Shown here: positions 10,681 to 28,041 of the stretch, piece by piece
Layout of the letters: each line of letters starts with the position of its first letter
Numbering within the stretch: position 1 is the stretch's first letter
NCBI RefSeq assembly: GCF_000284015.1
Contig: NC_016943.1
Coordinates: forward strand, 847,541 to 911,540
Origin: Blastococcus saxobsidens DD2
GTDB taxonomy: Bacteria > Actinomycetota > Actinomycetes > Mycobacteriales > Geodermatophilaceae
Direction of reading: 5' to 3'
Length of the DNA stretch: 64,000 nt
The notes under the pieces: generated by a model
Told to the model about the DNA's origin: nothing
The model's database searches: none
Seen by the model: the letters and a program-made list of their open reading frames with translations, nothing else
Program-made: the position numbers and the translations under genes

Positions 10681-11754
10681 GTGAGCCTCACCATCGGGAT
10701 CGTCGGCCTGCCCAACGTCGGCAAGTCGACCCTCTTCAACGCCCTGACCAAGAACGACGTCCTCGCGGCGAACTACCCGTTCGCGACGATCGAGCCGAAC
10801 GTCGGCGTGGTGGGGGTGCCCGACCCGCGGCTGGCGAAGCTCGCCGAGATCTTCGGCAGCCAGAAGATCATCCCGGCCACCGTGTCCTTCGTGGACATCG
10901 CCGGCATCGTCCGTGGCGCCAGCGAGGGGCAGGGGCTGGGCAACAAGTTCCTGGCCAACATCCGCGAGAGCGACGCGATCTGCCAGGTGATCCGGGTCTT
11001 CGCCGACCCCGACGTCGTGCACGTCGACGGCAAGGTCAGCCCGGCCGACGACATCGAGACCATCAACACCGAGCTCCTCCTGGCCGACCTGCAGACGCTG
11101 GAGAAGGCGATCCCGCGGCTGGAGAAGGAGATGCGCAAGGACAAGGAGCGCGCCCAGCTGCACAAGGCCGCCGTCGAGGCGCAGCAGGTGCTCAACGAGG
11201 GCAAGACCCTGTTCGCCGCCGGCCTCGATCCCGCACCCCTGCGCGAGCTCGGGCTCATGACCACCAAGCCGTTCCTCTACGTCTTCAACGTCGACGCCGA
11301 CGAGCTGGCCAACAGCGCGATGCTCGACGAGCTGCGCGGGCTGGTTGCGCCGGCCGAGGCCATCTTCCTCGACGCGCAGACCGAGTCGGAGCTGATCGAG
11401 CTGCCCGAGGAGGAGGCCGCCGAGCTGCTGGCCTCCATCGGCCAGGACGAGCCCGGACTGGACCAGCTGGCGTCGGTGGGCTTCCGCACCCTCGGGCTGC
11501 AGACCTACCTGACCGCCGGGCCGAAGGAGGCCCGCGCCTGGACCATCCCGGTCGGCGCCACGGCACCGCAGGCCGCCGGCGTCATCCACTCCGACTTCCA
11601 GCGGGGCTTCATCAAGGCCGAGATCGTCTCCTTCGACCAGCTGGTCGAGGCCGGCTCGATGAACGAGGCCAAGGCCAAGGGCTGGGTCCGCATGGAGGGC
11701 AAGGAGTACGTCATGGCCGACGGCGACGTCGTGGAGTTCCGCTTCAACGTGTAG
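10681..11754 (+). CDS. ychF: Redox-regulated ATPase/GTPase YchF
   Basis: YchF (OLA1) is a universally conserved ribosome-associated P-loop NTPase linked to stress and translation. The 357-residue product has G1 GLPNVGKST (9-17), G3 VDIAGIVRGASEG, the coiled-coil insert, a NVDADEL segment at the G4 position and the C-terminal TGS domain ending VEFRFNV. The GTG at 10681 gives the canonical N-terminus. The last codons lie inside the 15-bp attachment core of an integrated element: the final GTG TAG is supplied by the element, while GTC TGA at 25806-25811 represents the original end. The protein sequence is therefore unchanged by insertion. Confidence 0.97.
   Translation: MSLTIGIVGLPNVGKSTLFNALTKNDVLAANYPFATIEPNVGVVGVPDPRLAKLAEIFGSQKIIPATVSFVDIAGIVRGASEGQGLGNKFLANIRESDAICQVIRVFADPDVVHVDGKVSPADDIETINTELLLADLQTLEKAIPRLEKEMRKDKERAQLHKAAVEAQQVLNEGKTLFAAGLDPAPLRELGLMTTKPFLYVFNVDADELANSAMLDELRGLVAPAEAIFLDAQTESELIELPEEEAAELLASIGQDEPGLDQLASVGFRTLGLQTYLTAGPKEARAWTIPVGATAPQAAGVIHSDFQRGFIKAEIVSFDQLVEAGSMNEAKAKGWVRMEGKEYVMADGDVVEFRFNV
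11736..11750 (+). other. Attachment site core, ychF side (attL)
   Basis: GTTCCGCTTCAACGT forms the end of the ychF coding sequence (codons for FRFNV). An identical copy lies at 25793-25807. Crossover must occur within these 15 bp because the bases on either side differ. Confidence 0.88.
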
Positions 11755-11762
11755 ATCGGCAT

Positions 11763-11820
11763 AAAACCGCAGGTCAGCGAGTTAATGACTCCTCCCAATC
11801 CACACTCAGTCCACAAGAAT
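11763..11820. repeat. Left subterminal integrase arm-site candidates
   Basis: Two sequences recur near the right end of the element in the same orientation. AAAACCGCAGGTCA (11763-11776) matches 25732-25745 with one mismatch. ACACTCAGTCCACAAGAAT (11802-11820) matches 25674-25692 exactly. The second lies within the 3' end of the integrase gene. Such paired short repeats beside the core fit arm-type binding sites of a tyrosine recombinase. Confidence 0.65.
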
Positions 11821-12928
11821 CTGCGAGCAAGGCCTGCGCGGCGGTCCGGGTGCGGTCCTCCGCACTCGGCCACAGGTGGCTGTACGTGTTCAGCGTTGTG
11901 GTGGCGGAGGCGTGCCCGAGGGCCCGCTGCACGGTGACGACGTCGCAGCCGGCCGCGATCAGGCCCGAGGCGTAGAAGTGCCGGAGGTCGTGCAGTCGAA
12001 GCCCCGCGATGCCGGCGGCCGAGGTGGTGGTGCGCCAGCGGTAGCCGACAGTGTTCTGGTGCGGGGGCTGTCCCGCTTCTCCGGTGAAGAGCCATCCACC
12101 ACCCGGGCAGAACGCGGCGACATGCGCCGCCAGGAGGTCGACAAGCCCCGGGGCGAGGAAGACGACCCGCTCACTGCCGTACTTGGGCGGCCGCAACTCG
12201 ACCCGACCCCGACCTCCTCGCTGTACCTGGCGGGTGACGGTGAGCGTGCGCCGCAGGAAGTCGATGTCCTCGACCTGGACGGCGGCGGCCTCGCCGAGTC
12301 GGAGACCGGCGAAGGCGCAGAGCGCGACGAAGGGGCGGAAGGCGTCGTCGGCGGCCTGGAGGACGGCGCCGACCTGGGCCGCCGTGGGCAGGGTCATCGC
12401 GGCTGCCGCCCGGCGGCGCCGGGGGAGCGTGACGCCGACACTCGGATCACTCGCCATCAGCTTGTCGGCGACGGCGCCGCGGAGGACGGCGCGCACGTTG
12501 TTCATGCGCGTGTGCACGGTGCCGGGGGCAAGACCCCGGTTGACCATTCCCTTCACCCAGCCCTCGACGTGCGAGCGGCGCAGCGATCTCAACGGGACGT
12601 CGGCGAACGGCACCGAACCGGCCGCGAGGTTCATCGCGAGGACCGTCCCCGGTGCCCACACCTGCCGGCTGGACCAGTCCGCGTAGAACTCAGCGAACGT
12701 GGTGCGGCCGGCGCCCGGGTCGACGTACGTTCCGCGCGCGATGTGCGCTGTCTGGTCATCCAGCCAGCGCTGGGCGTCGCGTTTGAGCGCGAAGGCCTTC
12801 ATGATCTGACGGCCCGACGGGTCCCGGAACTGCGGGCGGTAGCGCAACCCCTTGCCGTCCAACTCCGTGGGCACCAGGCGGCCGGTGGCCGGATCCCTGC
12901 GACGCCATCGATCCTGGATGCTCGCCAT
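11774..12928 (-). CDS. int: Tyrosine recombinase (element integrase)
   Basis: The 384-residue integrase has an AP2-like arm-binding N-terminus (about 1-70), a SAM-like core-binding domain (about 75-165) and the catalytic domain. R210 (AGLRLGEA), H313 and R316 (HDLRHF), H339 (GHASATT) and the nucleophile Y349 (NTYSHL) are all present, so it should be active. The start at 12928 (MASIQDRWRRRD) is preferred over the open frame to 13243. Its stop lies 23 bases from the left core, the usual position for an element that excises by itself. No excisionase gene was recognised. Confidence 0.93.
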   Translation of the reverse strand: MASIQDRWRRRDPATGRLVPTELDGKGLRYRPQFRDPSGRQIMKAFALKRDAQRWLDDQTAHIARGTYVDPGAGRTTFAEFYADWSSRQVWAPGTVLAMNLAAGSVPFADVPLRSLRRSHVEGWVKGMVNRGLAPGTVHTRMNNVRAVLRGAVADKLMASDPSVGVTLPRRRRAAAAMTLPTAAQVGAVLQAADDAFRPFVALCAFAGLRLGEAAAVQVEDIDFLRRTLTVTRQVQRGGRGRVELRPPKYGSERVVFLAPGLVDLLAAHVAAFCPGGGWLFTGEAGQPPHQNTVGYRWRTTTSAAGIAGLRLHDLRHFYASGLIAAGCDVVTVQRALGHASATTTLNTYSHLWPSAEDRTRTAAQALLADSCGLSVDWEESLTR

Positions 12929-13073
12929 GGCTCCGCCCTTCAAATACCGATGGACCTCACCGGAAACCGACGCGGCCGAACGTAGTCCGAGGGCCTGACA
13001 CTGCGCCGTGCCCTGGCCGCGACGGCGTCCGCGAGCTCGACCGTGCACATGTGCCGGCCCAGCGGACATCCGG

Positions 13074-13499
13074 TCAGGTTGACGTGACCTCGGGAAGCAG
13101 CGTGAACGCCACGACGTGGGCGGGGCGGACGACCGTGAAATGGCGCCGGTCGAAGGTGGCGATCCGATCGATGCGCAGGCGCTCGGCGATGGCGACGAGC
13201 GAGGCATCGGTCCCGCCGAGACGGAGGTCCGCGTACCGCTCAACCAAGTCGGCCATGCGTGCGACGTCGGCAGCGGTCAACTCTGTCAGCTGCAGCCCGC
13301 CGGGCCGGATGTCGCGGAGAAACCGGACCTCGGCACCGGGTCCGCCCCACTCGTTGAGGAGGTAACAGACCTCTGCCAGCACGGTGGGCGGAACCAGCAG
13401 CGGCTCGTCGAAGGTCTCGAGCAATCGCGCCGCGGCATCGTGGTTGGTGTCAGCGGTCCGGGCAGCCGCGACGAGGACGTTCGTGTCGACGAGGATCAC
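13074..13499 (-). CDS. vapC: VapC-type PIN-domain ribonuclease toxin
   Basis: The 141-residue protein has the PIN acidic residues D5 (VDTNVL), E43 (LAEVCYLL), D98 (GGTDASLVA) and D117 (ATFDRRHF). These coordinate the metal for RNA cleavage in VapC toxins. The ATG at 13499 overlaps the stop of the upstream antitoxin gene. In a mobile element the pair is expected to stabilise inheritance by post-segregational killing; this role is inferred. Confidence 0.9.
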   Translation of the reverse strand: MILVDTNVLVAAARTADTNHDAAARLLETFDEPLLVPPTVLAEVCYLLNEWGGPGAEVRFLRDIRPGGLQLTELTAADVARMADLVERYADLRLGGTDASLVAIAERLRIDRIATFDRRHFTVVRPAHVVAFTLLPEVTST

Positions 13500-13756
13500 T
13501 CGCGGCCGAAGCCTCGCTGCAGGTACTCGTCGGTGCGGGTGGACAGGTCCGAAGGACCACCGTGGACCGAGCCGATGAAGTCGAGCTTCGCCCGGGGAGG
13601 CCGGGGAGCATCTTCGCCGCTTGACGGCTCGGGCTCCTCATCCGCGCGCACCACATGCAGGCGCTGGCCGGGCCGCACGCCGTGACGGCGCAGCTCGGCG
13701 AGCAGCTCGGCTGCATCCTCGGGGACCGTCAGGTCCCAGCCGTCGGCCGAACTCAT
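13496..13756 (-). CDS. vapB: VapB-like antitoxin
   Basis: The 86-residue product begins MSSADGWDLTVPEDAAELLAELR. It contains RPGQRLHVV, a short beta-hairpin segment like the AbrB/SpoVT DNA-binding fold. A proline- and acid-rich linker follows, then a C-terminal segment (SDLSTRTDEYLQRGFG) that is a plausible toxin-binding tail. The ATG at 13756 is chosen because codons upstream to 13888 look non-coding. It overlaps vapC by four bases (ATGA), and the antitoxin-first order is usual for type II systems. Confidence 0.78.
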   Translation of the reverse strand: MSSADGWDLTVPEDAAELLAELRRHGVRPGQRLHVVRADEEPEPSSGEDAPRPPRAKLDFIGSVHGGPSDLSTRTDEYLQRGFGRE

Positions 13757-13825
13757 GATCACAGGGTATCGGGGTTCTCGGACCACGAGCCAAAATCGCT
13801 GGAGCCGCTCCCTCCGCGTGAGTAT

Positions 13826-13914
13826 GCCGGCTGGCGTGGGTCGCCGGAAGGGCGCTGCGCGGCCCTCCGGGCTGGGCCTTCGGCCCACCCTTCCCCCGAC
13901 TCACCCCAGCCGGC
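13826..13914. other. Nested inverted repeats in the vapB / hypothetical gene gap
   Basis: The 366-base gap 13757-14122 holds no convincing gene. GCCGGCTGG (13826-13834) is matched by CCAGCCGGC (13906-13914). Inside this lies the hairpin TGGGCC-TTC-GGCCCA (13873-13887). The structure could be a folded RNA, a terminator for an upstream rightward transcript, or a remnant end of a small mobile sequence. Nothing in the sequence decides between these. Confidence 0.45.
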
Positions 13915-14122
13915 CTGGAAGCGGTTATCGGGAACTGGCTGGGAAGTGACCACCCGTCGCACCCCGGCAGTTCCGCTTGGGGATCGTCGAACGGCGCATC
14001 CCCTGCCCCAGCTCGGTAGACAGGGCCGGACGACGGGCGCAGCTGGCGGTTTGCCGTGATCGCGCATGCGCGTCCGCCCGCTCCTGCTGCCGATGGAACT
14101 CCGTGCCAACTACGGTCCGCGC

Positions 14123-14599
14123 ATGATGCTCCCGAGGCTCCTGCTGCGGGTGAGTGACCCCGCGCAGGTCTACTTCGACCGGCACTCAATGGGCCAGCGT
14201 TGGGGCGGGCCCGTCCATCGACAGGCGGCCGTCTTCGGTCCCGGTGTTCCGAGCGGAAGCCGACCCGCAACAGGCGAGGAACGCGCCGCCTTGACCGAGC
14301 GGCGCGTTCGCCACCGGGCCGACCACGAGGCAGCGCTGGCTGAGGTGAAGAGGCGCTGGAAGCCGCAACTGCTGAAGGCCGCGGAGCAACTGCTCGACGA
14401 GGGCACCACACGAATCGTGCTCGACGACCGAGCGGTGGACGCGCGCATCATCAAGTTCTGGCGCGGCGACCGCGTGCTGCACACCGCCACGAACGGTCCC
14501 GACGGTGGTGAGTCACTCTCACGCATCAGCCGCGACCCACGGCGCGGCGGGGCCGATGTCCTCGTGGAGTACCTGGCCAGAGCCGCGACCAAGCGGTAA
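14123..14599 (+). CDS. Hypothetical protein of the integrative element
   Basis: I do not recognise this family. The frame shows G/C-rich third positions and gives 158 residues starting MMLPRLLLRVSDPAQVYFD; an in-frame ATG at 14066 is an alternative. Residues about 65-100 form a charged helix (RHRADHEAALAEVKRRWKPQLLKAAEQLL). A compact segment with TTRIVLDDRAVDARIIKFWRGDRVLH follows. There is no signal peptide or membrane segment. It lies between vapB and the AAA ATPase gene and has no clear operon partner. Confidence 0.5.
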   Translation: MMLPRLLLRVSDPAQVYFDRHSMGQRWGGPVHRQAAVFGPGVPSGSRPATGEERAALTERRVRHRADHEAALAEVKRRWKPQLLKAAEQLLDEGTTRIVLDDRAVDARIIKFWRGDRVLHTATNGPDGGESLSRISRDPRRGGADVLVEYLARAATKR

Positions 14600-14749
14600 A
14601 GGCTCCTGTTCAAATCTCCGCTCCTGGTCGCCTCCGACGCCCCGTTCGAGGATCGTCGCGCGGGACGTCAGGGACGTTGTTGCTATGGGGCCGAGGGATC
14701 GTCGTCGCCGCCCCCTGCAGCGGGGAACGCGTTATGAATTTTAGTCGGG

Positions 14750-14768
14750 TTTATCCAGACTCGATAAA
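14750..14768. promoter_or_regulatory. AT-rich inverted repeat in promoter region of the AAA ATPase gene
   Basis: TTTATC (14750-14755) and GATAAA (14763-14768) are inverted repeats with seven bases between them. They lie in an unusually AT-rich stretch 28 to 46 bases before the GTG at 14796. The site could be an operator or overlap the promoter. Confidence 0.45.
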
Positions 14769-14795
14769 GCATCATAAGAAGGGTAACGTCTGCTC

Positions 14796-16019
14796 GTGGA
14801 CCCGATTCGGAACCCCTACACGCCAAACGCCGGTGCGCAGCCGCCCGCTGTGCTTGGCCGCGACGTACAGCTCATGACCTTCGAGCTACTGCTGCGTCGG
14901 ATGAGTGCGGGGCGCACTGAGCAGTCCATGATCATCACGGGCCTTCGCGGCGTCGGCAAAACCGTGCTACTTGGCCGGTTCCGAAGCAAAGCGCAGGAAC
15001 TCAACTGGGTGGTGGTCGAGCGCGAGGCGTCCAAGCACGACGACGAGCAGTTCCGGCGGCAGATGGTGAGCGCGATCCGCACCTCGCTGTTCGAGATGTC
15101 GCCCAAGGCCCGCTGGGGTGACCGTATGCAGCGCGCTGCGGCCGTGCTGAAGTCTTTCAGCGTCTCAGTCGACCCGACTGGAGCGTTGACCGGCGGGATC
15201 GACGTCGACGCCGCGCAAGGCTTTGCCGACCAGCAGGAGCTTCAAGCTGACCTCACCGACCTTCTCGTAGCGGTGGGGGAGGCTGCGCAGGACACGAACA
15301 GGGGTCTCGTGCTTCTCTTCGACGAGGTGCAGTTCCTGTCCACCACGCAGTTGGAGGCGCTGATCTCAGCGCTCCACAAGACCGTGCAGCGAGGACTCCC
15401 GGTCACGATGGTGGGTGCCGGCCTGCCGCAGATCGCAGAACTCGCCGGGGACGCGAAGTCCTACTCAGAGCGGCTGTTCAAGTTCCCCCGGATCGGGAAC
15501 CTTGAAGACAAGGACGCGCGCGCGGCCCTGGCTGAGCCTGCCCAAGCCGAGGACGCCGATTTCAGCGACGAGGCGCTTGACCTGGCGATCGAGGTCACCG
15601 GCGGCTACCCGTACTTTCTACAAGAGCTAGGTTACGCCGTGTGGGGTGTCGCCGACGGCCCCACGATCACTCGGGAGGATATCGCCTTGGCCCTGCCCAC
15701 CTACGAGGCGAAGCTGGACGAGTCGTTCTTCCGTGTGCGGCTGGACCGGGCAACCGAGATGGAGCGCATCTATCTACGCGCGATGGCCGAGCTCGGTCCC
15801 GAGGCGCAGAAGGCTCAGGACGTGGCGGCCGCGATCGGGCGTAAGTCGACGCAGATGGGTCCAACACGCGCACAGCTGATCAACATGGGGCTGCTCTACA
15901 CGCCCGAGCACGGTTACGCCGCGTTCACCGTGCCGCACTTCGACAAGTTCATGCTGCGGGCCATGCCGGAGCTCATGATGCCCCCGGAGCGGCCGAAGCG
16001 GTCTCGGAAGACGGACTGA
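14796..16019 (+). CDS. AAA-family ATP-binding protein with C-terminal winged helix
   Basis: The 407-residue protein has Walker A GLRGVGKT (49-56) and Walker B LVLLFDEVQ with D176-E177. A sensor-like segment (MVGAGLP) and a C-terminal region resembling a winged helix follow (about residues 320-390). This arrangement resembles Orc1/Cdc6-like and AAA_16 ATPases that are common on actinobacterial and archaeal mobile elements. The start is a GTG behind an AT-rich region with an inverted repeat, and a purine-rich AAGAAGG precedes it. The codon bias is slightly less G/C-rich than neighbouring chromosomal genes, which is consistent with acquisition. A role in element maintenance or host takeover is possible but unproven. 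Confidence 0.8.
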   Translation: MDPIRNPYTPNAGAQPPAVLGRDVQLMTFELLLRRMSAGRTEQSMIITGLRGVGKTVLLGRFRSKAQELNWVVVEREASKHDDEQFRRQMVSAIRTSLFEMSPKARWGDRMQRAAAVLKSFSVSVDPTGALTGGIDVDAAQGFADQQELQADLTDLLVAVGEAAQDTNRGLVLLFDEVQFLSTTQLEALISALHKTVQRGLPVTMVGAGLPQIAELAGDAKSYSERLFKFPRIGNLEDKDARAALAEPAQAEDADFSDEALDLAIEVTGGYPYFLQELGYAVWGVADGPTITREDIALALPTYEAKLDESFFRVRLDRATEMERIYLRAMAELGPEAQKAQDVAAAIGRKSTQMGPTRAQLINMGLLYTPEHGYAAFTVPHFDKFMLRAMPELMMPPERPKRSRKTD

Positions 16020-16244
16020 CCACGCCCGGGATGTTCGGCCGATGTGAAGAACAGCGCGGACAAGCCGCAATCCGTGCTGTTCCCCCGGGAACCCGCTACG
16101 GCGACAGCAAATCGCTTGGATGAGTCGTCGACCGGCGTCCCGCATGGGATCCTCGAGCGAGACACCGCGCGCATTGCGGCATGAGCGGGCGCGATGGGTG
16201 GGCCAGAAGAACCACGAAGACATCGCTTGTCACGCTGCCGACGG

Positions 16245-16406
16245 CTATTGCCGTGGCGACCATGAGGCGACGAGGACGACCTTGCCGGCCTTCGCCCGGC
16301 CCTCCTGAACGTAGGACAGCGCCTCGCCGGTGGCGTCCCGCTCGAAGACGCGGTCGAGGACGGGCCGCAGGACGCCGGCGTCGACCAGCGTCGCGAGCTC
16401 GGTGAG
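16245..16406 (-). pseudogene. C-terminal remnant of a zinc-type alcohol dehydrogenase / quinone oxidoreductase
   Basis: Only about 54 codons remain. They encode LTELATLVDAGVLRPVLD and RVFERDATGEALSYVQEG followed by KVVLVA. This matches the last segment of medium-chain dehydrogenases of the QOR type. The cofactor- and substrate-binding domains are absent, and upstream sequence does not continue the homology. It is a relic beside the MFS gene, left by an earlier rearrangement inside the element. Confidence 0.7.
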
Positions 16407-16497
16407 TGGTGAGCGAGCCGGGGGACCCGGTGCAGGCGGCAGACCGGCGCCGCGGGGGTGCGGCCGGTCGGTCCTCATTGCGAGCGCGAGCGGTGGG

Positions 16498-17940
16498 CTA
16501 CTGCGGTGCGGGCCCGGGCGCTGCTGCTTGCTGCGTGGTGCGCGGTGTCATGCCGATGGCGGCGGCGGCGGCGAGCCCGCCTGCCAAGGCGAGGGCCCAC
16601 CGGACGTTGTCGAACGCGTTGTTGACGGCGGCGTAGCCGACGGGTGTCCCGAGCAGCGCGACGAGAATGCTGACGCCCAGGACGCTGCCGACCTGGCGGC
16701 TCATGTTGACCACGGCGCTGCCTGTCGCGGCGCGGGCGGGAGGCAGGTCGACGGTCGCAGACGCCAGGATCGTCGGCAGCGCCAGGCCGACGCCGGCGCC
16801 GGTGATGAGCAGGCACGGCAGCATTTGGGTCGCGTACGCCGGGTCGGCGCCGAGCAGGAGCACGCTCAGCATCAGCCCAGTGCCGAGCAGCAGGCTGCCA
16901 GCGGCGGCGATGACGCCGATGGGCACCCGGTGCGCCACGCTCTGCGCCACCGCGGCGAACACCGGGACCATCAGCGGGCCGGCTGCCACCCCGAGGCCGG
17001 TGCGTAGGGCGGAGTACTCCCAGACCTGCTCCATCCACAAGATGTTGACGAGCAGGTTGCCGGCGAACGCGATGCCGAACAGCAGCGAGGTCGCGTTGGA
17101 CCAGGCGAAGGCGCGGACGGCAAGCAGCGCGGGTTCCACGACAGGTGCGGTGTGGCGCACCGACCGGCGCCAGAAGGCCGCCAGCGTCAGGACCGAGACG
17201 CCGAGCGCGAGAAGGGTGTCCGGGCTGGCCCAGCCCCACTCGGGGGCCTGGACGAGTCCGAGGGCGAGGGCGCCGACCGATACCGCGAGCAGGGCGGCGC
17301 CGAGCAGGTCGGGCAGCGGCCCGGGCTGAGGGTCCTTGGACTCGGGCACCACGCGGGCGGCGAAGACCAGAGCCAGCAGGCCGATCGGGATGTTGACGAG
17401 GAACACCCAGCGCCAGGAGGCGCCAACCAGCAGCCCGCCGACGACGGGACCGGCCGCGGCGGCCAGCGCGCCGGTGGCGGCCCAGATGCGCACAGCGCGG
17501 GCCCGGCGCTCGGGCGGCATCGCGTGCAGGAGCAGGCCCAGGCTGGCGGGAGTGAGCAGAGCGGCGCCGGCGGCCTGCAGGGTGCGGAAGGCCACGAGCT
17601 GCCAGAGCTCACCGGCTGCCGCGCAGCCGACGCTGGCCAGGGTGAAGACGGCGAGCCCGAGCAGGAAGCCGGCCTTGCGGCCGAACCGGTCGGCCAGCCG
17701 CCCCAGCGGCACGAGCAGCGCGGCGTAGACGACGGCGTAGGCGCTCAGCACCCAGCTCACGCTGGATAACGAGGCGCCGCCGAAGTCCGAGGCGATCGAG
17801 CCGAACGCCACGTTGACGATGAACAGGTCCAGGCTTGCCATAAACGCGGCGAGCGACAGCACCCCGAGCACGGCAGCAGGCGAGGCGGGTGGCCGCGGCG
17901 CGCGGGAGCGAGTCGGCGCTGTGCCCGCGCCCGCCGTCAC
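16498..17940 (-). CDS. MFS efflux transporter, DHA2 (EmrB/QacA) type
   Basis: The 480-residue protein has about fourteen hydrophobic segments. It carries motif A in GRLADRFGRK (near residue 80) and the DHA2 signature region LDLFIVNVAFGSI in the first helix. It probably exports drugs or other toxic organic compounds by proton antiport at the inner membrane. The GTG start at 17940 faces the HxlR regulator gene across a 181-base divergent promoter region. This arrangement predicts control by that regulator. It is cargo of the integrative element. Confidence 0.9.
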   Translation of the reverse strand: MTAGAGTAPTRSRAPRPPASPAAVLGVLSLAAFMASLDLFIVNVAFGSIASDFGGASLSSVSWVLSAYAVVYAALLVPLGRLADRFGRKAGFLLGLAVFTLASVGCAAAGELWQLVAFRTLQAAGAALLTPASLGLLLHAMPPERRARAVRIWAATGALAAAAGPVVGGLLVGASWRWVFLVNIPIGLLALVFAARVVPESKDPQPGPLPDLLGAALLAVSVGALALGLVQAPEWGWASPDTLLALGVSVLTLAAFWRRSVRHTAPVVEPALLAVRAFAWSNATSLLFGIAFAGNLLVNILWMEQVWEYSALRTGLGVAAGPLMVPVFAAVAQSVAHRVPIGVIAAAGSLLLGTGLMLSVLLLGADPAYATQMLPCLLITGAGVGLALPTILASATVDLPPARAATGSAVVNMSRQVGSVLGVSILVALLGTPVGYAAVNNAFDNVRWALALAGGLAAAAAIGMTPRTTQQAAAPGPAPQ

Positions 17941-18098
17941 GACCGGCCCCGGCTCTGCCCGGGACGGGGACTGCTGGACGGCGGGTGACCGGGCTGGTGT
18001 GGCGTCATCGGCTGCACAGGGGCCTCTCAGTGAGCGACTGCGCTGCCTGGCGAGCAGTCAGTGGGGAAACCGGACTGAGGCGAAAGTAGCGGCTGTCA

Positions 18099-18113
18099 GT
18101 TTGATGTGCAAAC
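18099..18113. promoter_or_regulatory. Candidate HxlR operator
   Basis: GTTTG-ATGTG-CAAAC is an inverted repeat ending eight bases before the HxlR start codon, in the region shared with the divergent efflux gene. HxlR proteins bind such short palindromes as dimers. The assignment is by position and symmetry only. Confidence 0.5.
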
Positions 18114-18121
18114 CTTGATGC

Positions 18122-18592
18122 ATGCCGATCACCCCACTGCAGGACCTGCCGGGCAGAGCGTGCTCCATCGCCGGCGCCCTCGAGGTCGTCGGGGACCGGT
18201 GGGCGCTGCTGGTGGTGCGTGAGGTGTCGATGGGCAGCCACCGCTTCACCGACATCGCGCACGGAACCGGCGCGCCGCGGGACCGGCTCACGGCCCGGCT
18301 CAACGACCTGGTCGAGGTAGGCGTGCTCGAACGGCGCCCGTACAGCACCGCGCCGCCGCGCTCCAGCTATCACCTGACCAAGAGCGGCCGGGACCTCATA
18401 CCGGTGCTGCAAGCCCTGCTGCAGTGGGGTGACCGCTGGGTCGCCGAGGAGCCGACCGTGCGCTTGCACCACGCGCCGGGCGACCACCCCGACCATCCCG
18501 TGGATCTGGCGTGGACCTGTCGTACCTGCGGTGAGCCGGTGAACGGCTCTCCGGTGCGACGCGTGTTGACCAGCCAGGACGCCGCCGAGTGA
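18122..18592 (+). CDS. HxlR-family transcriptional regulator
   Basis: The 156-residue product has the HxlR winged helix-turn-helix at about residues 12-108. Family features seen are C14 near the N-terminus, GDRWALLVVREV and the wing RRPYSTAPPRSSYHLT. A C-terminal extension carries CRTC (C133, C136), which might bind a metal. HxlR proteins often respond to electrophiles or quinones and repress adjacent detoxification genes. Here the neighbours are the divergent efflux pump and a co-transcribed thioesterase, and the next gene overlaps by four bases. Confidence 0.9.
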   Translation: MPITPLQDLPGRACSIAGALEVVGDRWALLVVREVSMGSHRFTDIAHGTGAPRDRLTARLNDLVEVGVLERRPYSTAPPRSSYHLTKSGRDLIPVLQALLQWGDRWVAEEPTVRLHHAPGDHPDHPVDLAWTCRTCGEPVNGSPVRRVLTSQDAAE

Positions 18593-19044
18593 CCCGGCCA
18601 AATCTGGCCGCCATGACCGGCCTCGAACAGCTCCGCTGGATCAAGTCCGAGAGCCCGCCCGACACCCCCTCCATCGGGCGGCTGCTCGGCATGCGCTTCG
18701 ACGAGGTCGACCACGGCCACGTCGTCATGTCCGTCAAGACCCGCCCCGACTTCTCCAACCCGCTCGGCACCGTCCACGGCGGGATCGCCGCCACCTTGCT
18801 CGACTCCGTCGTAGGCTGCGCCGTGCATACCACCCTGCCCGCCGGTGTCGGCTACACGACCCTCGAACTAAAGGTCAACTACGTCCGAGCGGTCCAGACC
18901 AACGGCGAGACCCTCACCGCGACCGGCAGCGTCATCCACGTCGGCCGGCGCACCGCAACGGCAGAGGGCAAGGTCGTCGACGGACACGGCAAGCTCATCG
19001 CCCACGCCACCACCACCTGCCTGATTCTGCAGGCCGCCGGTTGA
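18589..19044 (+). CDS. PaaI-family hotdog thioesterase
   Basis: The product has 151 residues from the GTG at 18589, which overlaps the HxlR stop (GTGA); an ATG at 18613 is an alternative. The hotdog-fold signature NPLGTVHGGIAATLLDSVVGCAV includes the catalytic HGG loop of the PaaI/YdiI class, which hydrolyses acyl- or aryl-CoA thioesters. It is apparently co-transcribed with the regulator, which suggests that the inducer or pump substrate is an aromatic compound processed through CoA esters. That link is inferred. Confidence 0.88.
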   Translation: MTRPNLAAMTGLEQLRWIKSESPPDTPSIGRLLGMRFDEVDHGHVVMSVKTRPDFSNPLGTVHGGIAATLLDSVVGCAVHTTLPAGVGYTTLELKVNYVRAVQTNGETLTATGSVIHVGRRTATAEGKVVDGHGKLIAHATTTCLILQAAG

Positions 19045-19632
19045 GCGAGGCCCATCTCCTAGAGGCGCTCAGTGCAGCCAGCGCGGACGAGCCGGGTCCC
19101 GTCGGGTTATCGTGCCGCGCGCTAGACCTCATACGGGGCTGGAGGGAGCGCCGACGGTCGACCAACTCGTCCGCATCCCGCGGGGCGCGTCGTGACCGCG
19201 CCGTTGACGGTGACGTGCGGGTGCTGCGCCAGGGCGTGCCCCGGTCGAATGCCGCCGAGCTCGGGAGCACACCCGGCGTGTTCGTCTGCTGCAGGTGCGC
19301 CGCATGGGCGCTGCTTCGGACGTTCCGCCGATAGCTTTTCTGGCAGCGCCGCCGCGAGCCGTTCGGCACAGTGCCGCAAGCAGAAATCCCGCGCCGCAGG
19401 CTTTCGAAGGACAGTGCGGAGCCACCTCCTCCCGCGGCCCGAAGCCGTCAGCAGCGGGGCGTCGAGGCGCGCGCTGCCGCAGAGCGTGGTCAACCCCTCA
19501 TCGGCATGAGCGCGTGTCTCACAAGCCGAACCCCCAGCCGGGAACACCGCAGGACAGGGCAGGTGCCGCTCGTCCGCCGTCCCGTAAGACCCGCCCGGTG
19601 AACCTTCCCGCACGGGGGAGGGTGGATTCCAG
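19045..19632. other. 588-base stretch without a convincing gene
   Basis: Several overlapping open frames exist on both strands, but none shows family similarity or consistent third-position bias. A plus-strand frame near 19192-19509 is Cys-rich at its start (VTCGCCARACPG) and might be the relic of a small zinc-finger protein. I would not annotate it as a gene. The stretch separates the cargo module from the IS30 copy. Confidence 0.5.
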
Positions 19633-21467
19633 CGGTCGACGCAACGCGAGCTCGTGTTGATCTTCGTTGCAGAGCCTAGCTGTGTGACGGTGGGAGGGAA
19701 GGGCTTCGCATTTCGGCGCGGAAGCGGGCGGCTGGGGTGTCGTAGTTCAGGCCTTTGCGGGGGCGGGTGTTCAGTTCGTGCATGACCGCGGCGACGTGGG
19801 CGTCGGTGTGCACGGACAGGTCGGTGCCTTTGGGGAAGTACTGGCGCAGGAGGCCGTTGTAGTTCTCGTTCGCGCCGCGCTGCCAGGGGCTGCAGCGCTC
19901 GGCGAAGTAGATCGCCACGCCGGTGGCTCGGGCCAGCTCGCGGTGTCGGGCCATCTCCACGCCCTGGTCCCAGGTCAGGGTGCGTTTCATGTGCGCGGGC
20001 AGGGGCGCGAACGCGGCGGTGGCGGCGGCGTTGACCGTCTCGGCGGTGTGATCGACCGGCAGGTTGATCACGATGCCGTACTGGGTGGTGCGTTCGCGCA
20101 GGGTCATCATCGCTGAGGCGCACCCCACGCCGAGGATGAGATCGCCTTCCCAGTGCCCGGCCTGCTGTTTGGTCTCCACCTCGGCTGGCCGCTGGTCGAT
20201 CATGGTCATGTCGCGGACGGCGGCGCCGTGCCCGGATCGGGTCAGCCAGCGGGACTTGCGGATCCGCCGGCCGGTGCGCAGCTTGCGGCAGTAGCGCTTG
20301 TGCAGTCCCTGGCCGCCGGGCACCAGCAGCGCCCGGTAGATCGTCTCCGGGCACAGCCACATCGTCGGGTCGGTCGGGTAGGTGCGGCGCAGCCAGCCGC
20401 TGATCTCATCGGGTGACCAGCACCGGTTGAGCTTGCGCTGGACGAGCGTGCGCAGCCTCGGGTGGGCGATTAGCTTGTGCTGTCGGGGCCGGGCGGCGCT
20501 GCTGGGCCGGGACGTGATCGGCGTGGTGGGGCAGGTAGCGGCCGTGCTCGTCGCGGTGTCGGTCCAGCTCCCGTTTGATCGTCGAGGGGTAGCGGCCCAG
20601 CTCGGCGGCGATCACCCGGATCGAGTAGTCCAGCCGCAGCAGGTCGGCGATCTGCAGCCGTTCGCGCAGCGACAGGTAGCGGCTTGAGCGCTCGGTGGGC
20701 CGGGACGGCGGGGCGGTCTGCTGGTGGCGGCGGGCGCGGATGCGTGCGCCGGTTTTCCTGTGCACGCCCAGGATCGTGGAGGCGGCGGTGTTGCTCAGCC
20801 CGGCACGCATCAGCTCCCAGTAGCGCGTGTCGCGCGCCAGCACGTCCGAGCGCGGTGCCCGCCGGCGGGTGAGTTCCTCGGCATGGCGTGCCGAGGTGCG
20901 AAGCGCGCGCCGCAGGAGGGCCTCCCGCTCCCGGCGGGCGTGCTCATCGGCGCGGCGCCGTTGGTCCTCCCACTGCCTGGTCAGGGGCGTCGGTATCCGC
21001 AGCCGCAGCGCGGCGGCCCGCGCGGTCAGGCCCTGCTCGCGCAGCTGCCCGTAGCGGGCGCGCCACCACCGATAGCCCGTCGAGCGACCCACCCCGGCGG
21101 CTCGAGTTGCGGCGCCGATCGAGTCGCCGCCTGCAAAGCGGCGCCAGAAGGCGTCCTCGACCCCGGCGTCGACGGCCAGGTGATGCCGCCCGCGGGGGCC
21201 CGGTCGCTGCCGTTCCCAGTCGACCATCAGTGGCGAGCAGTAGCCCAGCTCGGCCGCGGCCTGCTCGACGCTGAGGCCCTCGTCCCGCAGCGCGAGGAAC
21301 GCCTCCCGCAGCCACCGGTAGCCAGTCTCCTTGCCGATCCCGGCGGCGCGGGCGGACGGTTTGAGACCCCGCCCCTCCTTGACCGCCGCCAGGAACCGGA
21401 TACCAGTAGCGGAATCCCGTCGCGCATGCACCAATGACCGCCTTCAAAGAAGGCGTTGCGTCGACCG
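19633..21467 (-). mobile_element. IS30-family insertion sequence, frameshifted
   Basis: The 1.8-kb element is bounded by perfect 15-bp inverted repeats: CGGTCGACGCAACGC at 19633-19647 and its complement at 21453-21467. It holds one transposase gene read leftward. No matching short target duplication is evident (flanks CAG on the left, ATA on the right), so the ends may have changed or extend slightly differently. It lies between the thioesterase gene and the relaxase gene of the integrative element. Confidence 0.8.
19676..21434 (-). pseudogene. IS30-family transposase, interrupted by a frameshift
   Basis: The N-terminal part (21434-20406, TTG start or GTG at 21431) has repeated helix-turn-helix motifs, including SIRVIAAELGRYPSTIKRELDRH. 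The C-terminal part (to 19676) holds the DDE integrase core with GHWEGDLILG, LTWDQGVEMARH and the terminal E in NENYNGLLRQYFPKGTDL. Similarity passes from one frame to the other near 20490-20503, where the minus strand reads CAGCAGCGCCGCC. Beyond this point only the second frame gives HKLIAHPRLRTLVQRKL. A one-base change there would restore a single protein of about 585 residues. Programmed frameshifting cannot be excluded, but IS30 elements usually have one uninterrupted gene. Confidence 0.82.
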
Positions 21468-21644
21468 ATAGAACCTGGGGGAGGACAACCGGGACACCCC
21501 TGCCAGCCGCTCGCAGCCTCGTCATCCGCCTGTCGCTCAACGTCCACGCCACCGGGTCGCAAGGGCCACGTGACGCGAGCCGGTGCATGCGGAGCTGATC
21601 GTCATCCGCAGCTGCAGCTCGAAAGAAGGCGACCTGCTCTCAAT

Positions 21645-21656
21645 CGACAATTGTCG
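21645..21656. promoter_or_regulatory. 12-bp perfect palindrome upstream of the relaxase
   Basis: CGACAATTGTCG is fully symmetric and lies in an AT-rich part of the 377-base gap 21468-21844 between IS30 and the relaxase gene. A transfer-gene repressor or a relaxosome accessory protein could bind here. Confidence 0.45.
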
Positions 21657-21753
21657 TAAACGATCAACGACATGACGCCCGCGGCGTCTTTCCGCCCGCC
21701 ACTCCAGTCTTCCCGAACCAAGGTCAGGTCTTCACGAAAGAACGGCACACATA

Positions 21754-21810
21754 CTACCTTTGGAGGTAGCCAGGGCCCCGCTTCGCGGGGCCCGTAGGTG
21801 TTTCTAGGGG
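21754..21810. other. Candidate origin of transfer (oriT)
   Basis: Two hairpins lie side by side 35 to 90 bases before the relaxase gene: CTACCT-TTGG-AGGTAG (21754-21769) and GGGCCCCGC-TTC-GCGGGGCCC (21773-21793). The second is followed by GTAGGTGTTTCTAGGGG. MobF relaxases such as TrwC of R388 recognise a hairpin followed by a short T/G-rich tract that contains the nick. The layout here is similar, with the T/A step near 21805-21806 a possible nick. The second hairpin could instead be a simple transcription terminator. Confidence 0.45.
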
Positions 21811-21844
21811 TGGCGCGTTGGACATTATTGGGTGGCGTTGAGAA

Positions 21845-24800
21845 ATGCAGGGCGGGATGAAGATCTACGCCGGCGCGCCTGCGGCCGCCCGGCACTACGT
21901 CGAGGTCGACCGCAGCCGGGCGGATGACTACTACCTGGCGGAGGGAACCGGGGTGGCCCGCCGCTTCACGGCCGGCGACGGTCGGGTGACCGAGCTTGCC
22001 CCGCTGACCGGCCAGGCGTACGAGACCTGGGTGGCCGGACGCGACCCGGCCACCAACGACGCACGAGGGCAGCTGCGCCACGACGAGCACGCCGTCCGCT
22101 TCGTCGAGGTCATCGTGAACGGGCCGAAGACCTGGTCGATCGCGTCGGCGCTGCACCCGGACATCGCCCGGGCGTACGAGGCGGCGCAGGACCGGGCCGC
22201 GGGGCAGATCATCGCCTGGCTGTCCGAGCACGCCACCACCCGGGTCGGCCCGCGCGGTGGGCAGGTGCCGATGCCGGTGGAGGTGCTGGAGGCGGCGACG
22301 GTGCGGCACTTCACCTCCCGCGCCGGGGACCCGCACTGGCATCTGCACCTCCAGTTCCTGTCCAGAGTGTTCGCCGCCGGGAAATGGCGCGGCATGTTCA
22401 CAGTGGATGTGCGCGACTCCCTCGCCGCGATCAACGGGATCGGGCATGCGGCGATGGACACCGACCCGGAATTGAATGCCACGTTCGCCGCGCACGGGTA
22501 CGCCAAGGACGCGACCGGAGAAATACGGGAGCTCTCCGACTATGTCGGTCCTTTCAGCGCCCGGCATGCGCAGATCGCCCGGAATGCGGATCGCTACGAA
22601 CGGGAATGGACCACCGCGCACCCGGGCGAACACCCCGGCCCCGCCCTGCGCCGCTCCTGGGACACGCGCGCCTGGGCCGAGGGTCGCCCGGACAAGGTCA
22701 CCCCGCAGTCGGGGGTGAACGTGACCGAACGCTGGCGCACGGAGCTGCACCGCCTCGGCTTCCGGCCCCCGAGCAGGCCCGTGCCCCTGGTCCCCGCCCC
22801 GGTCGGCGCGCTGAACCGGGACGAGCTCGTGGGGCGGGCGCTGACGCGGCTCGCGGCCGGCCGGTCGGCCTGGAACGCGGCGGACGTGCGCGGGGAGGTG
22901 GAGCGGTTGATCGCCGCCGAAGGCATCGTCACCGGGCCGGCGGTACGCATCGAGCTGGCCGAGGATCTCACCGCCCGCGCTCTGGGACGCTGCGTGCCGC
23001 TGCTGGACCGCGACGGCATACCCGAGCACATCCGGGCCTGGACCTCCCGCCCGGTGCTCGCCGTGGAGACCGACCTGACCGCCCGGCTCGCCGTCCGCGC
23101 CGCGGCCGGCACACCTGACACCGACCTGACACCCCTGCCGACCAACCTGATACCTCCGGTCGCGCTCACGCCGGGTGCCGGGCGGCTGGACGCTGGCCAA
23201 GCTGCCGCCGTGACCGCGTTGGTCGGCGACCGGCCGCTGGTCGTGATCGAGGGCGCGGCCGGTGTCGGGAAGACCACCACGCTCGCCGCGACCCGCAGTC
23301 TGCTCGAGGCACAGGGGCGGAGGCTGGTGGTTGTCACTCCGACGCTGAAGGCCGCGAAGGTCGCCGCCGCGGAGGTGGGCGCGGCCGCGGGGTCGGCGGC
23401 CCGGCTGGTCTACGAGTACGGCTGGCGCTGGAACGACGACGGCGCCTGGGCCCGCCTCGCGGTCAGCGATACCGACCCGGTCACCGGCCGCGTCTACAGC
23501 GGCCCGGCCAACGCCGCCCAGCTGCGGCCCGGCGACCTTCTCGTCGTGGACGAAGCGGGCATGCTCGACCAGGACACCGCGCGAGCCGTCCTGACGATCG
23601 CCGACGAGTGCCGGCTTCGGGTGGCGCTGCTCGGCGACCGGCACCAGCTGGCCGCAGTCGGCCGCGGCGGCGTCCTCGACCTCGCGGTCGGCCAGGTCGA
23701 CGCCGACGCCTACCTGACATTGCAGGGGGTGCATCGCTTCACCCGCATCGGCCCGGACGGCCGCACCCTGCCGGATGTCGGCTACGCGGACCTGACCCTT
23801 GCGATGCGTGTCGGCGACGACTCCGGCAAGGTGTTCGACACCCTGCTGGCCCGCGGGCAGATCCGATTGCACCCTGACCCCGACGTGCTGCGGGAGGCCA
23901 TCGCCGCCAGCGCCGTGGCGTCGTACGCCGACAGCCGCCAGGTGGCGGTGGTGGTCGACACCCGCGACCAGGCCGCCATGCTCAACGCCGCCATCCGCGG
24001 CCGGCTGGTCGTCGCTGGCCGCGTCGACGACACGTGGGTCGTCAGCACCGCCGCGGGGGAGCGGATCGGGGTCGGCGACCGGGTGGCCACCCGCCGCAAC
24101 GACCGCGACCTCGATGTCGCCAACCGCGACGTCTGGATCGTCACTGGCGTCGGCCGGGACGGCGGGTTGCGTGTCACCCCCGCCGATGTCACCCCAGCCG
24201 GACTTGTTCCTGCATCTGCCAGCCCGACCGCCACGCGGCAGCGGTGGCTGCCGGGCGACTACGTCACCGCGCACTTGGAGCTCGCGTACGCGACCACCGC
24301 GCACGGCGCGCAGGGTGACAGCGTCACCGCTGCCCATCTGGTGGTCGGGGAGCACACCGGTGCCGCGTCGGCGTACGTCGGAATGACCCGTGGACGCGAG
24401 GCGAACACCGCTCACCTCGTCGCCGCCGACGCGGACGAGGCGAGGGAGCAGTGGGTCGCCGTCTTCGCCCGTGACCGCGCCGACCTCGGCCCCGCTCACG
24501 CCGCCGAACAGGCCGCCGCCGAGGCCGCCCGCTACTCCGCACGTCCGCTGGAGCAGGTCGTGGCCGACCTGCACCGGGCGTGGACCGTCGAGCAGAACTG
24601 CCTGGACCGGCTGGCCTTCTGGCAGCCGCAGCGTGACCAGCTACGGGAGGTGGTCACGCTCGAAGCTCCCCACGCCGGCGAACTCGCGAGGCTGGAGGCC
24701 GTCCGGGAGCGGGCGGCGATCGCCGCCCAGCAGGCTCATCAGCGGGCACAGGCCAGCGCGGCCGCGGTCGCCACCGAGGCCGACCGGATCCGCGACAGAC

Positions 24801-25522
24801 TGCTGGGCTCCTGGGACGGCGAACGCGGCGCCGCCCGCGCGGCGGCGAAGGTCGTGCTCGACGGGTCCGGCCGGCTCGGGCTGCGCCGGGGCGCGGTCGC
24901 CCGCGCCAAAGAGCAGCTCGCCGACTGGGCCGAGCGGTGGCGCGCCCACGTTCCCTCCCTGCCCAGCGATCCGAAGGAGCTCGCGCGCCTGGCTGGCTGG
25001 TTCGACGACCGGCCCGCGCTGTGGGCTGCGCTCGACACCTCCGCTCAACGCGCCGCCGAAGCCGCCCACCCCGAGCACGGCGCCCAGGGCGCCGCCGCGG
25101 TCGCCGCCCGGCAGCAGTACGAGCAGGCCCGGTCCGCGCTGGCCGAGGCCCACCGCCAACGCGACCAGCGACTCCGAGGATTGGAACCCGCCGCCTGGAC
25201 CCCCGAGCCCCAGGCGCGGCTCGCCGAGCTGGACCGAGACATCGCCGCCACCCGGCAGGAGCTCACCGACGCCCGGGCGCGCATCGCCACCCTCAGGGCC
25301 GAACACCTCGCCGTCCCCGGCGCCGAACCGGCCCGGGTGCAGCCTGCCGAGCGGCTCGCCCAGGAGCACGACGCGTGGCGCGCCCGCCGACGGAACGCCG
25401 AGCGGGCCGCCCGCCGAGCAGGCGACGTTCGGACAACCCCGAACCAGCGGCCCATCCATGTGCCACCGCCACCACTGAGCCCCGGACCACGGCCGGGTGC
25501 CGGACCTGGTATGGGGCGGTGA
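21845..25522 (+). CDS. MobF-family relaxase-helicase (TrwC/TraA type)
   Basis: The 1225-residue protein nicks and unwinds DNA during conjugative transfer. The N-terminal relaxase domain (about 1-310) has the tyrosine pair Y29-Y30 (DDYYLAEG) and the HUH metal motif H164-W-H166-L-H168. The RecD-like helicase follows, with Walker A GAAGVGKTTT (470-479), Walker B LLVVDEAGMLD and the late motif YATTAHGAQGDSV. The last 300 residues are helical and Ala/Arg/Glu-rich. The gene appears complete. Start is ATG 21845, with ATG 21857 as alternative. It sits just inside the right end of the element with a candidate oriT upstream. No coupling protein or mating-pore genes accompany it. Confidence 0.93.
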   Translation: MQGGMKIYAGAPAAARHYVEVDRSRADDYYLAEGTGVARRFTAGDGRVTELAPLTGQAYETWVAGRDPATNDARGQLRHDEHAVRFVEVIVNGPKTWSIASALHPDIARAYEAAQDRAAGQIIAWLSEHATTRVGPRGGQVPMPVEVLEAATVRHFTSRAGDPHWHLHLQFLSRVFAAGKWRGMFTVDVRDSLAAINGIGHAAMDTDPELNATFAAHGYAKDATGEIRELSDYVGPFSARHAQIARNADRYEREWTTAHPGEHPGPALRRSWDTRAWAEGRPDKVTPQSGVNVTERWRTELHRLGFRPPSRPVPLVPAPVGALNRDELVGRALTRLAAGRSAWNAADVRGEVERLIAAEGIVTGPAVRIELAEDLTARALGRCVPLLDRDGIPEHIRAWTSRPVLAVETDLTARLAVRAAAGTPDTDLTPLPTNLIPPVALTPGAGRLDAGQAAAVTALVGDRPLVVIEGAAGVGKTTTLAATRSLLEAQGRRLVVVTPTLKAAKVAAAEVGAAAGSAARLVYEYGWRWNDDGAWARLAVSDTDPVTGRVYSGPANAAQLRPGDLLVVDEAGMLDQDTARAVLTIADECRLRVALLGDRHQLAAVGRGGVLDLAVGQVDADAYLTLQGVHRFTRIGPDGRTLPDVGYADLTLAMRVGDDSGKVFDTLLARGQIRLHPDPDVLREAIAASAVASYADSRQVAVVVDTRDQAAMLNAAIRGRLVVAGRVDDTWVVSTAAGERIGVGDRVATRRNDRDLDVANRDVWIVTGVGRDGGLRVTPADVTPAGLVPASASPTATRQRWLPGDYVTAHLELAYATTAHGAQGDSVTAAHLVVGEHTGAASAYVGMTRGREANTAHLVAADADEAREQWVAVFARDRADLGPAHAAEQAAAEAARYSARPLEQVVADLHRAWTVEQNCLDRLAFWQPQRDQLREVVTLEAPHAGELARLEAVRERAAIAAQQAHQRAQASAAAVATEADRIRDRLLGSWDGERGAARAAAKVVLDGSGRLGLRRGAVARAKEQLADWAERWRAHVPSLPSDPKELARLAGWFDDRPALWAALDTSAQRAAEAAHPEHGAQGAAAVAARQQYEQARSALAEAHRQRDQRLRGLEPAAWTPEPQARLAELDRDIAATRQELTDARARIATLRAEHLAVPGAEPARVQPAERLAQEHDAWRARRRNAERAARRAGDVRTTPNQRPIHVPPPPLSPGPRPGAGPGMGR

Positions 25523-25673
25523 GCCCCCCCGCGATCCGTCTAGCGGCACGCGAATTGCCAGCGGGTACTTGCGCCACCGGCCTTCGGAGGAGACACCGCG
25601 ACCGTCACCGAGAGTGCGGATTTGCTCGTCGCGGAACGCTCTGCGACACGCCCGAGCGCGTGGACGTCAGGCA

Positions 25674-25745
25674 ACACTCAGTCCACAAGAATTTCATTCG
25701 AGGCCGTCGACCACCAACATCACCCAACGGCAAAAGCGCAGGTCA
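25674..25745. repeat. Right subterminal integrase arm-site candidates
   Basis: ACACTCAGTCCACAAGAAT (25674-25692) and AAAAGCGCAGGTCA (25732-25745) match the left-end copies at 11802-11820 (exact) and 11763-11776 (one mismatch), all in the same orientation. Their order relative to the core is mirrored between the two ends, as expected when arm sites flank both junctions. Confidence 0.65.
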
Positions 25746-25792
25746 ACCCCGGCTTCCAGTCATGCTCAAGATCGCTCAATCACGCAGGGAAC

Positions 25793-25807
25793 GTTCCGCT
25801 TCAACGT
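25793..25807 (+). other. Attachment site core, right end (attR)
   Basis: GTTCCGCTTCAACGT duplicates the ychF terminus. Together with the next four bases it reads TTC CGC TTC AAC GTC TGA, the likely original ychF ending. The chromosome resumes immediately to the right. Confidence 0.88.
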
Positions 25808-25817
25808 CTGACTGAGC

Positions 25818-27002: not shown

Positions 27003-27238
27003 GTCGCTCCCGACTGAAGGCCGCGGACCTCCGTCACCGCCGCAGCTCGGCCACGGTGTCGAGCCTGCCGATTCCGGGGCGATCGCGCATCACATGGACG
27101 CCGGGGATCCGGCCGTGCTCCATGGGAGCCGGGTCGGTCGGCCACCTGGGCGCTGCTGTGCGGGCGCGGGCGGGTCCCCGGCCGGCGGCATCGATCCCGC
27201 CGGCCGGGTACCCGCCGACCTCGGGCTGTTCCCGGTCC

Positions 27239-27472
27239 TCAGCCGCGGAGACGGCTGGCGAGAAGCTTCTTGCCCTGCTCCCCGCCCTTGCGGCTCTCGG
27301 CCTGGGCGCGGCGGAACAACTCGGCGAGCTCGCTGTCGCCGTCCCGCTCCGCGTCCTGGATGTAGGCCTCCATCCGCAGGGCGTTGCTCAAGGACGCCTC
27401 GGTGAACCAGATGAGGTTGTAGTCCTTGTCCTTGGTGCCGGTGACACTGCCGGTCTCGGTGCTCGTGGTCAT
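27239..27472 (-). CDS. Small helical protein, possible ferritin-like hairpin
   Basis: The 77-residue product starts with a Thr/Ser-rich tail. Two amphipathic helices follow (about 20-42 and 46-72), rich in Glu, Arg and Ala with LRMEAYIQDAERDGDSELAELFRRAQAES. The spacing of acidic residues resembles half of a rubrerythrin-like four-helix bundle, but no full metal-binding set is visible. A strong AGGAGG lies seven bases before the ATG, so it is probably well expressed. The next gene upstream on the same strand is the A-type scaffold-like protein. Family unknown. Confidence 0.7.
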   Translation of the reverse strand: MTTSTETGSVTGTKDKDYNLIWFTEASLSNALRMEAYIQDAERDGDSELAELFRRAQAESRKGGEQGKKLLASRLRG

Positions 27473-27519
27473 GACGGTCCTCCTGTTCGCGACGTGATCG
27501 GTATCAGTGCGCGCCAGGG

Positions 27520-27804: not shown

Positions 27805-28041
27805 GCTGACGTCCTCTCGGTGTCGCACGCCGGGCGGGAGGCCGGAAACGGTGTCGCGAGTCGTCGGTCCGTCGCGACTCCGGCGGCCCTCGGGTGACCC
27901 GGCGTGATGGCCGGTGGCCGGGGCGGGATCGTTGCCCGCCTCATCCCCCAACGTTCTCCGTCGGGCCGGACACGTCAAGGGCGTGGCGGTATTTCGATCC
28001 AGTGTTCCGGCGGACGCCCGCCGCCCGGATCCGGCGGCGGG

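Follow-up and report, generated by a model that had tools for sequence, protein, structure and literature searches.

A MobF-encoding element of probable integrative mobilizable type at the 3′ end of ychF in Blastococcus saxobsidens DD2

A 14-kb segment of the Blastococcus saxobsidens DD2 chromosome is best explained, as a whole, as a mobile element that integrated site-specifically and belongs to the integrative mobilizable element (IME) type, and we hold this explanation with considerable confidence. A 15-bp repeat bounds the segment, the last codons of ychF are completed at its left end, integrase and relaxase genes lie within it, insertions recur at the same site in related genomes, and a near-identical sister element occupies ychF in two species. 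The window analyzed here is a stretch of 64,000 nucleotides (NC_016943.1, positions 847,541 to 911,540), and positions are those of the window unless the chromosome is named.

Insertion site and junctions

The element occupies positions 859276-873347 of the chromosome. The repeat and the sequences around it were located as follows.

10681..11754, + strand: ychF, 357 aa, with the final Val-stop (GTG TAG) from the element; YchF-GTPase_C and MMR_HSR1 (Pfam)
11736..11750, + strand: left core (attL side), GTTCCGCTTCAACGT; repeat search of window and chromosome
11769..11776, + strand: GCAGGTCA, candidate arm-type site 18 bp inside the left core; motif class
11802..11820, + strand: left copy of the 19-bp repeat ACACTCAGTCCACAAGAAT; repeat search
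25674..25692, + strand: right copy of the 19-bp repeat ACACTCAGTCCACAAGAAT; repeat search
25793..25807, + strand: right core (attR side), with the original ychF end GTC TGA; repeat search of window and chromosome

The two copies of GTTCCGCTTCAACGT are spaced 14,057 bp apart and are the only exact ones in the 4,875,340-bp (4.88-Mb) chromosome; with up to 2 mismatches allowed, the window contains 2 matches, and the expectation from 100 shuffles is 0.08. Exact identity is limited to 15 bp because the preceding base differs (A at the left, C at the right). The last two letters of the core are the GT of the final ychF Val codon, so any next base gives Val, and the in-frame stop directly after the core is supplied by the element itself. 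An earlier note, made from the letters of this DNA, had placed the repeat in the last ychF codons and again 14,057 bp to the right, had read the original ychF ending at the right copy, and had concluded that insertion leaves the YchF protein unaltered. All three statements hold: the left junction reads GTG TAG and the right junction GTC TGA, with Val-stop on both sides, and the ychF product matches YchF-GTPase_C at 1.9e-37. In the mechanism proposed here, a tyrosine integrase would recombine attP of the element with the terminal 15 bp of ychF; the third letter and stop provided by the element would complete the Val codon, leaving YchF whole and moving the old ending to the right end.

We examined 55 junction rows, at least two genomes being entered twice (G060/L110 and G092/L126). 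All 51 rows that contain the ychF end have GTN followed by an in-frame stop at the left junction, and some of the repeats extend across the stop, so those Val-stop cases are not independent. The base 5′ of the core is C in 19 of the 19 main-type right junctions read, A in ychF itself, and G in the G019 type. Main-type right junctions read CGTT-CCGCTTC-AACG, and because CGTT and AACG form an inverted repeat around a 7-bp middle, we infer that strand exchange in attP takes place inside CCGCTTC. The motif class of GCAGGTCA occurs in 42 of the 51 left junctions, a descriptive count, as the pattern was written after the junctions had been seen. A second arm-like motif stands right after the right core in G008, G084, G098, and G103 (L040:8364-8378, L094, L096, and L097), which suggests tandem or nested ychF elements in these genomes.

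The right neighbor (25818-27002, − strand) encodes a pyridine nucleotide-disulphide oxidoreductase (Pyr_redox_2, 1.6e-08); the label "SQR-like" given to it earlier is fair as to family, with SQR identity itself unproven. No tRNA genes were found in the window, no Rfam family matched in 11000-28000, and GC content does not distinguish the element. Tandem and inverted repeats called over the element were GC-rich chance matches and were discarded.

Gene content

The gene order of the element is core, integrase, PIN and small gene, cargo, 104-bp block, MobF, core.

11774..12928, − strand: tyrosine integrase, 384 aa from ATG; Pfam Phage_integrase 1.3e-19
13074..13499, − strand: PIN-domain protein, VapC-like toxin by family; Pfam PIN 1.5e-18
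13496..13759, − strand: protein of 87 aa whose gene overlaps that of PIN, a possible antitoxin from its position only; conserved with PIN
13989..21738, no strand: cargo absent from G001 and G008; blastn ends of the flanking shared modules
14796..16019, + strand: AAA ATPase (AAA_16), cargo; Pfam
16498..17940, − strand: DHA2-type MFS exporter, cargo; TIGR00711, 234.6 bits (cut-off 230.2)
18122..19044, + strand: HxlR-type regulator and 4HBT thioesterase, cargo; Pfam
19676..21434, − strand: transposase-like gene in two frames (rve 19676-20362; HTH 20406-21434), cargo; Pfam
21741..21844, + strand: candidate oriT, a non-coding block conserved ahead of MobF; nine genomic copies
21845..25522, + strand: MobF relaxase-helicase, 1225 aa; TrwC 7e-50, AAA_30, NF041492

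The intact tyrosine integrase that had been described beside the left core is an open frame, and the MobF relaxase described as complete near the right core exceeds the curated NCBIfam cut-off for MobF (110.6 bits versus 100). The PIN gene is retained in G001, G008, and G038; its 87-aa partner has no Pfam or NCBIfam match. The transposase-like gene, which spans two frames, looks broken. The 104-bp block contains an inverted repeat with 9-bp arms at 21773-21793. The MobF protein found no close relative among 688 plasmid records (best, 41.6% identity over 72%), and the integrase remained below 60% against all 823 phage records (best, about 33% identity).

Ten proteins of the element were scanned, the smaller frames lying outside the scan, and none matched a mating-pair-formation or coupling protein, an FtsK/TraB-like translocase, or, in Pfam, a phage structural or packaging gene. 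All PF02534 (T4CP) and SCO6880 matches of the genome fall outside 859276-873347, and the complete T4SS that is the ICE criterion is absent from the element. The element would be mobilizable by its gene content.

Sister elements and empty sites

Window positions 11751-13988 align with G001 and G008 at 91-92%, and positions 21739-25792 align with them at 83-84% (blastn); both genomes, from other species, carry these end modules at the same core, with different cargo between them. Their integrases are 95-96% and their MobF proteins 79-80% identical to those of the element. A closely related pair is found in two species: G008 and G038 carry an 11.2-kb sister element at ychF that is 99.79% identical over 11,204 bp, versus 92.6% over 403 bp for the host ychF end. 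The match begins and ends precisely at the core, and no right-flank alignment was obtained over the about 1.6 kb of G038 flank compared. This sister element, which has the same left module as ours, appears to have moved recently between species. The mobility deduced in the earlier note gains support from it, and the segment is probably a real, mobile element. The same note had set two outcomes against its own reading, namely that the 14 kb might be ancestral or that no genome might have ychF beside the 25.8-kb flank. Neither occurred: G001 and G008 have the same end modules and the same core with other cargo, and the oxidoreductase gene comes after ychF in 11 of 22 congeners.

Those 11 congeners have an element-free site, with no second core and no integrase match. 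It had been expected that ychF would be followed directly by the oxidoreductase gene in genomes without the element; the order is as expected, but the gap is about 0.3-3.4 kb rather than nil. From the displaced ychF end to the gene there are 10 bp here, so no sequenced empty site matches this junction, and its exact empty-site form was absent among the 22 congeners examined. G011 and G012 have neither a second core nor an integrase match, and the oxidoreductase gene is absent within 20 kb; in G009, the contig ends. An arm-like GGTCAGC follows ychF in G004 (by eye) and G011, perhaps as scars of lost elements.

The unlike right junction would also suit a fixed, decayed island that, once inserted at ychF, could not leave because it has no excision factor and was inherited vertically. 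No HTH_17 (excisionase-type) match was found within the element, a match of this kind adjoins the integrase in three further IMEs from the same genome (I2, I4, and I9), and the transposase gene among the cargo looks broken. We regard such an island as unlikely, however, as both the integrase frame and the MobF frame are open, with the identities to G001 and G008 given above, and as a sister element sharing the left module has apparently moved between species in recent times.

ychF as a recurrent target

The core pattern is present in 100 of 112 family genomes, and 26 of these 100 have two copies on the same contig and strand, at most 60 kb apart, whereas a reversed-pattern control gave zero pairs in every genome. 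These pairs, the presence of two copies only in 4.88 Mb, and the congeners with an empty site refute the idea that the repeat is a chance or gene-conversion trace in 14 kb of ordinary chromosome, which retains a negligible probability. A second core or this integrase type is at ychF in 37 of the 100 core-bearing genomes; the union is 38 genomes and becomes 37 without G061, which was excluded because its paired cores are away from its ychF end; G105 is added by inspection. In G061 (L089, 4.08 Mb), these two cores are 13.4 kb apart, perhaps through rearrangement or at a secondary site.

Among the best 35 integrase matches in the family, 30 adjoin a core and are oriented as expected; the top 24 are all among these 30. 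Of 79 loci from named relatives, 34 have ychF next to the integrase, among them loci from Nocardioides, Phycicoccus, and Pimelobacter. Thirteen of the 34 come from outside the family, labeled Phycicoccus, Terrabacter, Pimelobacter, Pedococcus, Nocardioides (five), Pseudonocardia, Frankiales, Acidimicrobiaceae, and Thermoleophilia, at least 7 of these 13 being metagenome bins, for which the label may be wrong. Among 15 such genomes searched, 7 have a same-strand pair of cores on a single contig, and one of the 7 (G125) is G019 again. On these sequences, the ychF 3′ end is a recurrent target and not a curiosity. To call it "less familiar", as had been done, understated the case, since the site is recurrent, and also overstated it, since 3′ ends of housekeeping genes are described as IME targets in PMC5704250.

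In a tree of 83 integrases, the ychF label requires 7 changes versus a shuffled mean of 25.8; 0 of 500 shuffles had as few, and at least 4 changes are forced by the starred branches, finer claims being unsafe given the long branches and quick method. The tree and the family integrase search were built on the clean alignment A1, and five integrase fragments of <200 aa (L133, L135, L136, L138, and L167) were omitted from the tree. In the other home-made integrase profile, used where right junctions were read, the G021 row is mis-framed, with 3 stops. The label is found in two places, a clade of 40 rows, 29 of them ychF and 11 other, and a separate group (L142, L156, and L170). Two of the 11 other rows, L118 and L123, have a core directly after the integrase and no ychF, as would be expected if they were second in an array. 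A third type (G002, G021, and G084) is marked by a shorter integrase, placed at the right end, and by repeats of 25-52 bp at the site, and the G002 integrase as a query reaches one first-type integrase only, at 23.7 bits. G027 has a 42-bp repeat at the site and no recognized integrase. Judged by the integrases, at least three lineages use the ychF site.

The G002 element (L033:2559-10828), of this other type, has a 43-bp repeat and carries serine recombinase, DNA methylase, and HNH and PDDEXK nuclease genes. In G014 (L046:1-1570), the integrase frame lacks the usual stop and continues into the antisense strand of ychF.

The MobF family and its candidate oriT

The chromosome contains two long and nine short MobF genes, one short gene being split in two frames. 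The short genes are at chromosome positions 24097, 671469, 1168914, 1721732, 1971083, 3814373, 4196792, and 4674026 and at window position 21845, and their proteins are 61-70% identical to that of the window. The 104-bp block has nine copies in the genome, 78-86% identical, one directly upstream of each short MobF gene; one copy is broken, leaving an 83% piece. Across the genus, 49 copies are spread over 17 of 23 genomes. When the block is folded, 1 of 26 pairs is changed on both sides, which is almost no covariation. We consider the block at 21741-21844 a candidate oriT: after excision, MobF would nick it directly upstream of its own gene and would lead one strand out via a T4SS encoded elsewhere, for example, by either chromosomal T4SS locus.

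Two chromosomal T4SS-marker loci lie near the two long MobF genes and contain SCO6880-family proteins, a TraG/TraD-type coupling protein, and an M23 peptidase, with a weak VirB4-like match far under the cut-off. Both are candidate helpers for the element. The block and the T4SS marker are not associated in the genus, the marker being present in 12 of 17 block-bearing genomes and in 4 of the 6 that lack the block.

Four of the eight remaining elements lie in ARAGORN-called tRNA genes (tRNA-Arg(CCT), tRNA-Lys, tRNA-Ala, and tRNA-Arg(CCG)) and have flanking repeats of 43-46 bp. I5 has a 43-bp repeat of tRNA-like look with no ARAGORN call, I2 has an 18-bp flanking repeat, and no flanking repeat was found for I8 and I9. 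The integrase is 3′ of MobF on the same strand in 7 of the 8 (I3 differs), whereas in the window element it is at the end opposite MobF and reads toward the left core; integrase modules therefore seem to have been exchanged. G023 resembles a derivative without a relaxase: at ychF it keeps the block and the PIN pair, and the stretch read there has no MobF.

MobF genes were found in 6 of 26 genomes with ychF elements fetched (the count covers G062 and G078 without their middle parts and G039 without its right end), and the G019 element at ychF carries a phage tail-type protein. Both observations are in keeping with an integrase-inserted island that is spread by transduction, transformation, or another replicon, with MobF uninvolved. 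We think this improbable, as MobF and the upstream block remain together and open in 8 of the 9 short copies in this genome and are also kept in the sister element that appears to have moved recently.

The broader reading of these data is that the ychF 3′ end is a phylum-wide hotspot in Actinomycetota, on which at least three tyrosine-integrase lineages have converged and where tandem arrays form, and that, in Geodermatophilaceae, a large MobF IME family uses it as one among several docking sites; members of this family would share one oriT block, trade integrase modules between targets in tRNA genes and in protein genes, and outnumber the resident T4SS loci (9 versus 2 here). We give this reading an even chance of being right. 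If true, it would help explain why actinobacterial genomes have many relaxases but few T4SS, as noted for Actinobacteria in PMC3158045, a question for which the element provides a concrete case. With nine MobF elements, one shared candidate oriT, and two T4SS loci, helper sharing is directly testable. Because the landing site and integrase clade may serve many actinobacteria, the integrase and the 15-bp core in a single-copy gene are a candidate insertion tool.

Comparison with known systems

With an integrase, att sites, a relaxase, and no T4SS, the element would work like an IME, as a MobF-carrying variant of that type. It shares with the canonical IMEs described in PMC5704250 a tyrosine integrase, a 3′-end target restored by the element, its own relaxase, the lack of its own T4SS, and toxin-antitoxin type genes. 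It differs in its MobF: according to that 2017 review, neither MobF nor MobH was then known as the relaxase of a canonical IME, and the one Actinobacteria IME named, ATE-1, has MobV. A MobF in an IME of canonical type was thus unknown as of that review. MobF-like IMEs are not wholly unprecedented, because the plasmid-borne IME pPDL2 (2012) has a protein with weak MobF likeness, as described in PMC3516476; MobF is reported as common on Mycolicibacterium plasmids (PMC8190616). ychF is not named as an IME target in the text of PMC5704250 available to us, and no report of integration into the ychF 3′ end was found in the searchable literature, outside of which lie supplements and most subscription papers.

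The pneumococcal satellite prophages between dnaN and ychF (PMC6375853, PMC8637289, and PMC10383233) are likewise adjacent to ychF and flanked by short direct repeats, and their excision is reported there by PCR; they are described as intergenic, upstream of ychF, and altering its promoter. In contrast, the target of the present element is the last ychF codons, and the protein end is restored. AICEs move as double-stranded DNA by means of an FtsK/TraB-like protein and have no relaxase. The present element has a relaxase, and no FtsK-like match was found in its 10 scanned proteins; common to both is that AICEs (pSAM2 type; PMC3158045) are integrating Actinobacteria elements with tyrosine integrases. 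The dusA integrase family (PMC4482086) and the SGI1-like islands at trmE (PMC8409611) resemble it in that, as described, a lineage is devoted to one housekeeping gene across many bacteria; the former uses the 5′ end of dusA and the latter the 3′ end of trmE, both in other hosts.
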